A stretch of 64,000 bases of DNA from Gammaproteobacteria bacterium (GTDB taxonomy: Bacteria; Pseudomonadota; Gammaproteobacteria; AKS1): the NCBI GenBank assembly GCA_027006175.1, contig JALTKS010000056.1, positions 62,001 to 126,000 on the forward strand, read 5' to 3'. Positions 15,145-15,798 of this stretch are shown piece by piece; the stretch's first letter is position 1, and each line of letters opens with the position of its first letter. Under the pieces are notes generated by a model, which made no database searches, was not told the origin of the DNA, and was given only the letters and a program-made list of their open reading frames with translations. Made by a program: the position numbers and the translations under genes.

Positions 15145-15182
15145 AAGAAAAGACAACAAGGTGGGTTGCCCACCTTGTTGTC
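15145..15182 (-). terminator. Strong terminator after the superoxide-reductase-like gene
   Basis: A perfect 14-bp stem (15152-15165 with 15169-15182) and a three-base loop. On the minus strand the stem is followed by TTTTCTTAC. It lies nine bases after the stop of the superoxide-reductase-like gene and separates it from the DUF3301 gene. Confidence 0.85.
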
Positions 15183-15191
15183 AGTATCGAT

Positions 15192-15629
15192 TTAAACTTC
15201 AGCGACAGATAACCATGAGTCATGCAGGTTACAAACACTCAGCGCGTAAATCGGACCGCTGTGAGATTTAATGTTGAACTGTGATTCTGGTGAATCTTTT
15301 GTTGGGTCAAAGACTTTTTCATCCATAAAATTAAAGTCTTTGTCGAGTAACATGTGTTTAACAATATAGTGTTTATATTGTTTCATTGGATGGCTTGTTA
15401 CGACATTAACAATGATGCCACCTTTGCTTTTACTTACCGCAATATTGGGAGAGTGGGGCCCTGCTTTTTTTGCCCAGCGACCGGGTGAATCCATTGTGTA
15501 AAAGATCCCTCCTGACATTGGGTTACTACTTATTTTATGCCCCATATCACCAGCTAAAATCATTTTTGGTGCGATGATACCGGTGGCTGAACCCGCGACA
15601 GCGAGTCGTATAAAAGAACGTCTATCCAT
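15192..15629 (-). CDS. Tat-exported superoxide-reductase-like (desulfoferrodoxin-family) protein
   Basis: A 145-residue protein. The N-terminus DRRSFIRLAVAGSATGIIAP is a twin-arginine signal, so the folded, metal-loaded protein should be exported. The rest resembles the iron centre-II domain of superoxide reductases. HSPNIAV (His59), SHPMKQYKHYI (His80, His87) and CNLHDSW (Cys133, His136) can supply the Fe(His)4Cys site. Canonical enzymes have a Glu-Lys pair directly before the first His; here the text is AGPH, so the catalytic lysine is missing at that place. The second and third His are seven apart rather than six. It may reduce superoxide weakly, bind another ligand, or have another redox role. 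It is monocistronic. Confidence 0.75.
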   Translation of the reverse strand: MDRRSFIRLAVAGSATGIIAPKMILAGDMGHKISSNPMSGGIFYTMDSPGRWAKKAGPHSPNIAVSKSKGGIIVNVVTSHPMKQYKHYIVKHMLLDKDFNFMDEKVFDPTKDSPESQFNIKSHSGPIYALSVCNLHDSWLSVAEV

Positions 15630-15798
15630 GTAATATCTCCTAAATTAATATTGATGAATGAGTTACATCACAGAGAGAATTATTGTTAAGTTGTTATTCC
15701 CCAGGTAGTGATAAAACTCACCAGCAACTGAGTCTATTCTTATTGTTCAGGAAAACAAGTCGGAAAATGCTGACATTAAGTAAGGGAAAGTATGTGGC

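Follow-up and report, generated by a model that had tools for sequence, protein, structure and literature searches.

The window, a 64,000-nucleotide stretch of a gammaproteobacterial contig, carries on its reverse strand a gene for a small protein with a predicted twin-arginine (Tat) signal and the iron ligands of superoxide reductases (SORs), referred to here as Tat-SOR. The coordinates of the gene and its features are collected in Table 1. The genome to which the window belongs (G000) lies within the Sulfuriflexus group, and it was compared with three genomes of the same genus, namely G001, which contains the contig of locus L022 labelled Sulfuriflexus sp., the complete genome G002, and G003.

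The Tat-SOR gene is solitary in the window. An FAD-linked oxidase is encoded upstream and a DUF3301 protein downstream, and beyond the latter, on the opposite strand, follow the genes for SspB, a GST-type protein and the bc1 complex, the Rieske subunit of which matches a Tat-signal model. A strong terminator-like hairpin is situated about 10 bases past the stop codon, and therefore the gene probably terminates its own transcript at this site. The hairpin is retained in the congener L021, where the loop-side part of the stem differs and pairing is still possible. The promoter search at the window gene revealed no promoter-like site.

Table 1. Features of the Tat-SOR locus, numbered from the first nucleotide of the window.
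Feature	Position	Strand	Evidence or conservation
Tat-SOR coding sequence, stop included	15192..15629	(-)	145 aa; PF01880 E 8.8e-8; AlphaFold model
AGGAG ribosome-binding-like site, just 5' of the ATG	15637..15641	(-)	sequence reading
Predicted twin-arginine signal, residues 1-26 (RRSFI, hydrophobic stretch, ILA-GD cleavage-like)	15552..15629	(-)	sequence reading, low pLDDT
K55, Lys at -4 relative to H59	codon 15465..15467	(-)	20/20, 81/81; helix 50-59
H59, first iron ligand	codon 15453..15455	(-)	invariant, 20/20 and 81/81
H80 to H87, second and third iron ligands, seven apart	15369..15392	(-)	invariant
C133-N-L-H136, Cys ligand and fourth His	15222..15233	(-)	invariant CN.H
Strong terminator-like hairpin past the stop	15152..15182	(-)	sequence analysis

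Iron ligands and predicted fold

The conservation of the protein was evaluated in two sets of sequences. The first comprised the window sequence and 19 BLAST-found loci, and the second (81 aligned members) the window sequence and the best 80 of 352 confirmed loci, which were derived from 405 pattern matches; the sets overlap in some genomes. Since K55 and C133/H136 form part of the two search patterns, the 20/20 obtained with BLAST is the fairer figure for these residues. An earlier sequence-only reading had placed five iron ligands in this ORF. We confirmed the strand and the length of the ORF as well as the ligands H59, H80, H87, C133 and H136, all of which were invariant in 20/20 BLAST-found and 81/81 aligned members. 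The same reading had stated that the second and third His are one residue further apart than usual. This was also the case: the spacing is 7 in the window protein versus 6 in the canonical SORs L101-L103, and the wider spacing is a trait of the branch, being present in 81/81 aligned members and in 17 of the 20 sequences of the BLAST set (6 in the three others, L018-L020). In addition, H92 and D137 were invariant in both sets, and K91 was present in all 81 aligned members and replaced by Arg in three sequences of the BLAST set (L018-L020); none of these three residues was seen in L101-L103.

The Pfam Desulfoferrodox profile aligned to residues 55-139 of the window protein with 33.1 bits (cut-off 22.2), and the NCBIfam SOR models TIGR00320 and TIGR00332 scored far under their cut-offs (25.9 of 146.9 and 21.5 of 61.9 bits, respectively). 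The AlphaFold model, based on 57 sequences, had a mean pLDDT of 84, with values mostly above 90 in the mature domain (about 87-98 per block from residue 31 onward) and below 50 in residues 1-26. When this model was compared with solved structures, as the sequence-only reading had suggested, SORs headed both rankings. All of the Foldseek ranks 1-24 were SORs, and in VIA-align SORs occupied ranks 1-19, the highest scores being those to the I. hospitalis SOR (Z 13.8 for 4brv and 12.9; rmsd 2.4 and 2.9 over 109 and 107 residues), followed by the SORs of N. equitans (Z 12.6) and P. furiosus (1do6, Z 12.6). The fold of the model is that of a 1Fe superoxide reductase, the SOR beta-sandwich. Two other assignments were considered and rejected: a SoxYZ sulfur carrier, because all SOR iron ligands are present and the SoxYZ-type chains reached Z 8.5-8.9 versus 13.8 for SOR, and a 2Fe desulfoferrodoxin (Dx-SOR), because the N-terminal Cys4 domain is absent and C133 is the single Cys of the protein.

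The Glu-Lys pair and the lysine at position -4

Ahead of H59, residues 57-58 are Gly-Pro, and the classical Glu-Lys motif is absent. This replacement, which had already been pointed out in the sequence-only reading, proved to be common to the whole branch, as Lys at -1 occurred in 0/20 members of the BLAST set and 0/81 aligned members, and Glu at -2 in 2/81. The loss of the classical motif could be taken to mean that the protein is a degenerate former SOR without an iron function. However, the ligands are invariant, and the dN/dS values for the window gene versus the congeners L021 and L022 were 0.048 and 0.050, respectively. The gene is under strong purifying selection and is therefore no decaying copy, which contradicts degeneration and makes it highly improbable.

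It had further been proposed that the altered site reflects a different substrate or role. According to this explanation, the iron site would be intact and the lost Glu-Lys would mean a loss of selectivity for superoxide, the protein serving, for example, to carry electrons in the periplasm or to sense or scavenge NO, peroxide or sulfur species. The absence of a Glu-Lys pair from every one of the 81 members is consistent with such a change, as are the extra invariant residues H92, D137 and K91, the presence of the SoxYZ sulfur carrier among the structural neighbours (Z 8.6), and a cytochrome c'-type gene that adjoins one member (L094). On the other hand, the five ligands are invariant and SORs rank far over SoxYZ (Z 13.8 versus 8.6-8.9), and an invariant Lys could compensate for the lost one. 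In the AlphaFold model a helix at residues 50-59 (GRWAKKAGPH) ends at H59, and K55 is located one helical turn earlier. In the profile alignment K55 was aligned to the -4 Lys of the I. hospitalis SOR and of both Pyrococcus SORs; at -1 the Pyrococcus enzymes have Lys and the I. hospitalis enzyme has Thr. In the canonical Dx-SORs L101-L103, which belong to the same bacterial class, position -1 is occupied by Lys and position -4 by Ser or Ala. As judged from these alignments, the SORs compared (the window branch, I. hospitalis, Pyrococcus and L101-L103) carry a Lys at -1, at -4 or at both positions.

The I. hospitalis SOR (neelaredoxin type, 4bk8) is the best match of the window protein both in sequence and in fold; it likewise lacks the -1 Lys and possesses the -4 Lys, and the N-terminal segments of the two proteins are similar. 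It differs in being archaeal and in having kept Glu at -2, no Tat signal is present in the PDB chain that was matched, and the identity is 27-28%. Because this solved SOR is also without the -1 Lys, the absence of Glu-Lys is not disqualifying. The wild type and the mutants T24K and E23A of this enzyme reportedly all reduce superoxide at normal rates, so that an SOR devoid of the Lys, or of both Glu and Lys, would still be a fast enzyme. By their PDB titles, the three proteins are 4bk8 (wild type), 4brj (T24K) and 4brv (E23A). Given that the change is branch-wide, that K55 is invariant and that 4bk8 has no -1 Lys, a different substrate or role is not supported, and we consider it unlikely. The sequence-only reading had itself named, as an observation that would speak against its claim, a catalytic position occupied by a Lys of another part of the protein. 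Such a Lys is suggested by the invariant K55 in the model, which falls short of proof; the supposedly missing catalytic lysine appears to lie a few residues earlier, at -4.

Two further types of SOR-family proteins were encountered. The Tat-start SOR L106 (genome G266) has Glu-Arg-Met-His, a His spacing of 6 and CNQHG, and carries neither the -1 nor the -4 Lys. By its sequence it represents a second kind of Tat-SOR, and the -1/-4 Lys rule is accordingly not universal. In L104 and L105 (genomes G025 and G172), which have an N-terminal hydrophobic stretch, the CN.H region reads APNHSAPW. The Cys ligand is gone, and the question arises whether these proteins may represent an SOR-like fold without the classical iron site.

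Export and gene neighbourhood

The usual description of SORs is that of enzymes in the cytoplasm of anaerobes, with rubredoxin as their electron donor. The Tat start of the window protein (MDRRSFI...ILA-GD) is conserved in the branch, with R3 in 81/81, R4 in 80/81 and RRx[FLM] in 79/81 aligned members, and TatC is encoded in 4/4 genomes (G000-G003). The conserved arginines and TatC support the earlier proposal of a Tat-exported protein with an SOR fold, the Pfam TAT_signal match of the window protein (E 0.28) being under the cut-off, and Tat-SOR is probably sent across the inner membrane. Alternatively, the protein could be a cytoplasmic superoxide reductase whose N-terminus is an anchor or a non-functional signal. 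The sub-threshold TAT_signal match would fit this, and so would rubredoxin, the usual cytoplasmic donor, which is encoded in all four genomes and would be cytoplasmic there; moreover, a cytoplasmic scavenger would be sensible in a genus in which no Fe/Mn or Cu/Zn superoxide dismutase (SOD) was found. Against it stand the near-complete conservation of the RR motif, the cleavage-like ILA-GD, the presence of TatC and the pairing of the gene in relatives with genes for a cupredoxin-like protein and a diheme cytochrome, both with signal-like starts, and cytoplasmic action therefore seems very unlikely to us.

ORF clustering of the best 80 of 352 loci placed a cupredoxin-like protein near six SOR genes and a diheme cytochrome c near six; the ORF caller picked up the SOR gene in 71/80 loci, and these neighbour counts are lower bounds. 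The missed SORs are apparently due to the caller preferring longer overlapping ORFs. The order SOR, cupredoxin, diheme cytochrome c was found at L023, L024, L025, L029 and L039 and also in the complete same-genus genome G002 (L004), and shorter versions at L028 (SOR then cupredoxin) and L030 (SOR then cytochrome). That close relatives, among them the complete congeneric genome G002, share this order is new here, and no paper on an SOR with a cupredoxin partner was present among the literature matches listed. The cupredoxin gene is present in G002 and was found in none of G000, G001 (89% complete) and G003 (80% complete); by these genome sequences, the window species would have lost this cupredoxin or never had it. 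An ECF-type sigma factor, recognised by eye, was encoded near 7 of the best 80 loci.

The identity of the neighbour rests mainly on its C-x4-H-x4-M pattern, which we take to be the cupredoxin copper motif. Pfam Cupredoxin_1 was under the cut-off in one member and gave no match in another, and the matches to CopI/plastocyanin profiles were weak. The structural model had a pLDDT of 71 (below 50 in the last residues), and in Foldseek copper nitrite reductases and SufI appeared just above E 0.001 amid unrelated beta proteins. These profiles and the modest model weakly support a cupredoxin. The top PDB sequence-profile matches were driven by repeats.

In at least 28 of the 80 loci, a number inflated by common ancestry among methanotrophs, the SOR gene stands in a mostly same-strand run with another C-x4-H-x4-M protein; these loci are mostly from Methylococcales. 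In the Methylococcales loci (L042-L100) a conserved run precedes the SOR. It encodes a protein without a Pfam match (28 of the 80 loci), a cupredoxin-like protein with the sequence CDIAQHMEKGM (28 loci), a VTT-like protein (26 loci) and a multi-pass protein that is uncharacterised (29 loci). Ten upstream neighbours outside both the cupredoxin/cytochrome group and the Methylococcales cluster were mostly unrelated (branching enzyme, Lon, acyl-CoA dehydrogenase, GMC oxidoreductase, aldolase, HypD and a cyclic-nucleotide-binding protein), one was without a Pfam match, and the redox exceptions were a multihaem cytochrome (L045) and the cytochrome c'-type protein of L094.

Distribution, other superoxide enzymes and proposed function

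The Tat-SOR branch was detected in 18/274 sampled genomes of the class (threshold E 0.001), and a match to the Pfam family was present in 21/274, exceeding the cut-off in 20 genomes. Among the best 80 of 352 loci most were from Gammaproteobacteria, with many Methylococcales; the others included single Krumholzibacteriia and Leptolyngbyaceae MAGs, a Betaproteobacteria-labelled MAG, a Hydrogenophilales MAG and three Alphaproteobacteria, and some of these carriers could be binning errors. The Leptolyngbyaceae-labelled contig (L097) carries the same Tat-SOR, which would be due either to gene transfer or to wrong binning. In a tree built quickly from 112 columns, in which many forks stayed open, a very long branch separated Tat-SOR from four outgroup SORs (SH-aLRT 94), and the window sequence joined L021 and L022, with the cupredoxin-operon set coming next. 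Nine pattern-matching stretches in viral contigs encoded no relative and the plasmid collection gave no pattern match; therefore, these collections show no sign of Tat-SOR being a mobile or viral gene.

Fe/MnSOD was found in none of G000, G001 and G002 (the control gave a signal in 12/14) and Cu/ZnSOD in none of G000-G003; for Ni-SOD there were no matches in 10 genomes, the control genomes being equally silent. Three genomes (G000, G001 and G002) of a genus related to sulfur oxidisers thus appear to encode no recognisable Fe/Mn or Cu/Zn SOD, which is a new observation here. Tat-SOR is the only SOR-family match in G000. Di-heme peroxidases were found in G001-G003 and none in G000. In the class as a whole, Fe/MnSOD was present in 9/18 Tat-SOR carriers versus 180/256 other genomes (Fisher P = 0.11; P = 0.27 after a rough genus collapse applied to the carriers only). 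An anti-correlation between Tat-SOR and SOD across the class was rejected as not significant; therefore, the replacement of SOD by Tat-SOR is suggestive in this genus and no general rule.

We consider it likely that the window gene encodes a Tat-exported one-iron superoxide reductase which works in the periplasm with a relocated lysine and is fed by the respiratory chain. Such a protein would take up iron and fold in the cytoplasm, as the Tat signal and TatC suggest, and would then be exported folded. In the periplasm its Fe(II)-His4-Cys centre, indicated by the fold and the ligands, would reduce superoxide to hydrogen peroxide, K55 supplying the positive charge that is given by the -1 Lys in classical SORs. 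The oxidised site could then be re-reduced by periplasmic carriers. In close relatives the co-encoded cupredoxin and diheme cytochrome c are a plausible electron supply; in the window species, where no such cupredoxin was found, the donor would presumably be a cytochrome c of the respiratory chain. Against this explanation speak the low NCBIfam scores, the sub-threshold TAT_signal match, the solitary position of the window gene with no cupredoxin found in G000, G001 or G003, the lack of a significant replacement of SOD across the class, and the failure to find a di-heme peroxidase in G000; moreover, a periplasmic SOR leaves the cytoplasm of a SOD-less cell unexplained.

The window protein is ordinary in kind and informative in detail, the details being the conserved lysine at its apparently relocated position and the probable feed by cupredoxin and cytochrome in relatives. 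SORGOdb named TAT-SOR as a class in 2011, with seven SORs predicted to be Tat-secreted and with Desulfovibrio, Desulfuromonas and Geobacter as named examples (PMC3116461). The combination on which this class is based, a twin-arginine signal preceding the SOR active site (centre II), is predicted in the window protein; compared by description, the class accounts in the portions of that source consulted do not include the Glu-Lys loss, the -4 Lys or the cupredoxin/cytochrome partners (PMC3116461). As far as the excerpted account goes, uncultured Sulfurimonas pluma, which is SOD-less and oxygen-exposed, highly transcribes a TAT-1Fe-SOR, for which periplasmic scavenging was proposed (PMC10066037). 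It resembles the window case, by description, as a chemolithotroph with an exported SOR and no SOD, and differs in having a cytoplasmic 1Fe-SOR as well, in contrast to the one SOR-family match in G000. With the published class, the Sulfurimonas case and the 18 carrier genomes, a periplasmic SOR is less unusual than the earlier remark had suggested.

More tentatively, Tat-SOR might represent an SOR branch whose catalytic Lys was relocated from -1 to -4. Its members would be linked with aerobic respiration by a cupredoxin and a diheme cytochrome c dedicated to them, and electrons from quinol would thereby reduce periplasmic superoxide in aerobic sulfur oxidisers (in methanotrophs with another cupredoxin), the enzyme being in some genera the only recognisable superoxide enzyme. 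If true, this exported gammaproteobacterial branch, with its relocated lysine and co-encoded periplasmic carriers, would show that superoxide reduction can be wired in a second way and would allow the importance of the Glu-Lys motif to be judged from a natural case; it could also explain how sulfur oxidisers that lack SOD cope with superoxide. Cupredoxins and diheme cytochromes are known as partners: in the consulted part of one report, the cupredoxin AcoP and cytochrome c4 of Acidithiobacillus exchange electrons, which resembles the gene order of the relatives, and the context there is iron respiration with no SOR (PMC5982212). The literature covered also included PMC9916283, PMC4853749, PMC6491731 and PMC7465337. 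Thiomargarita nelsonii is reported to possess an operon of SOD, desulfoferrodoxin and cytochrome c peroxidase.
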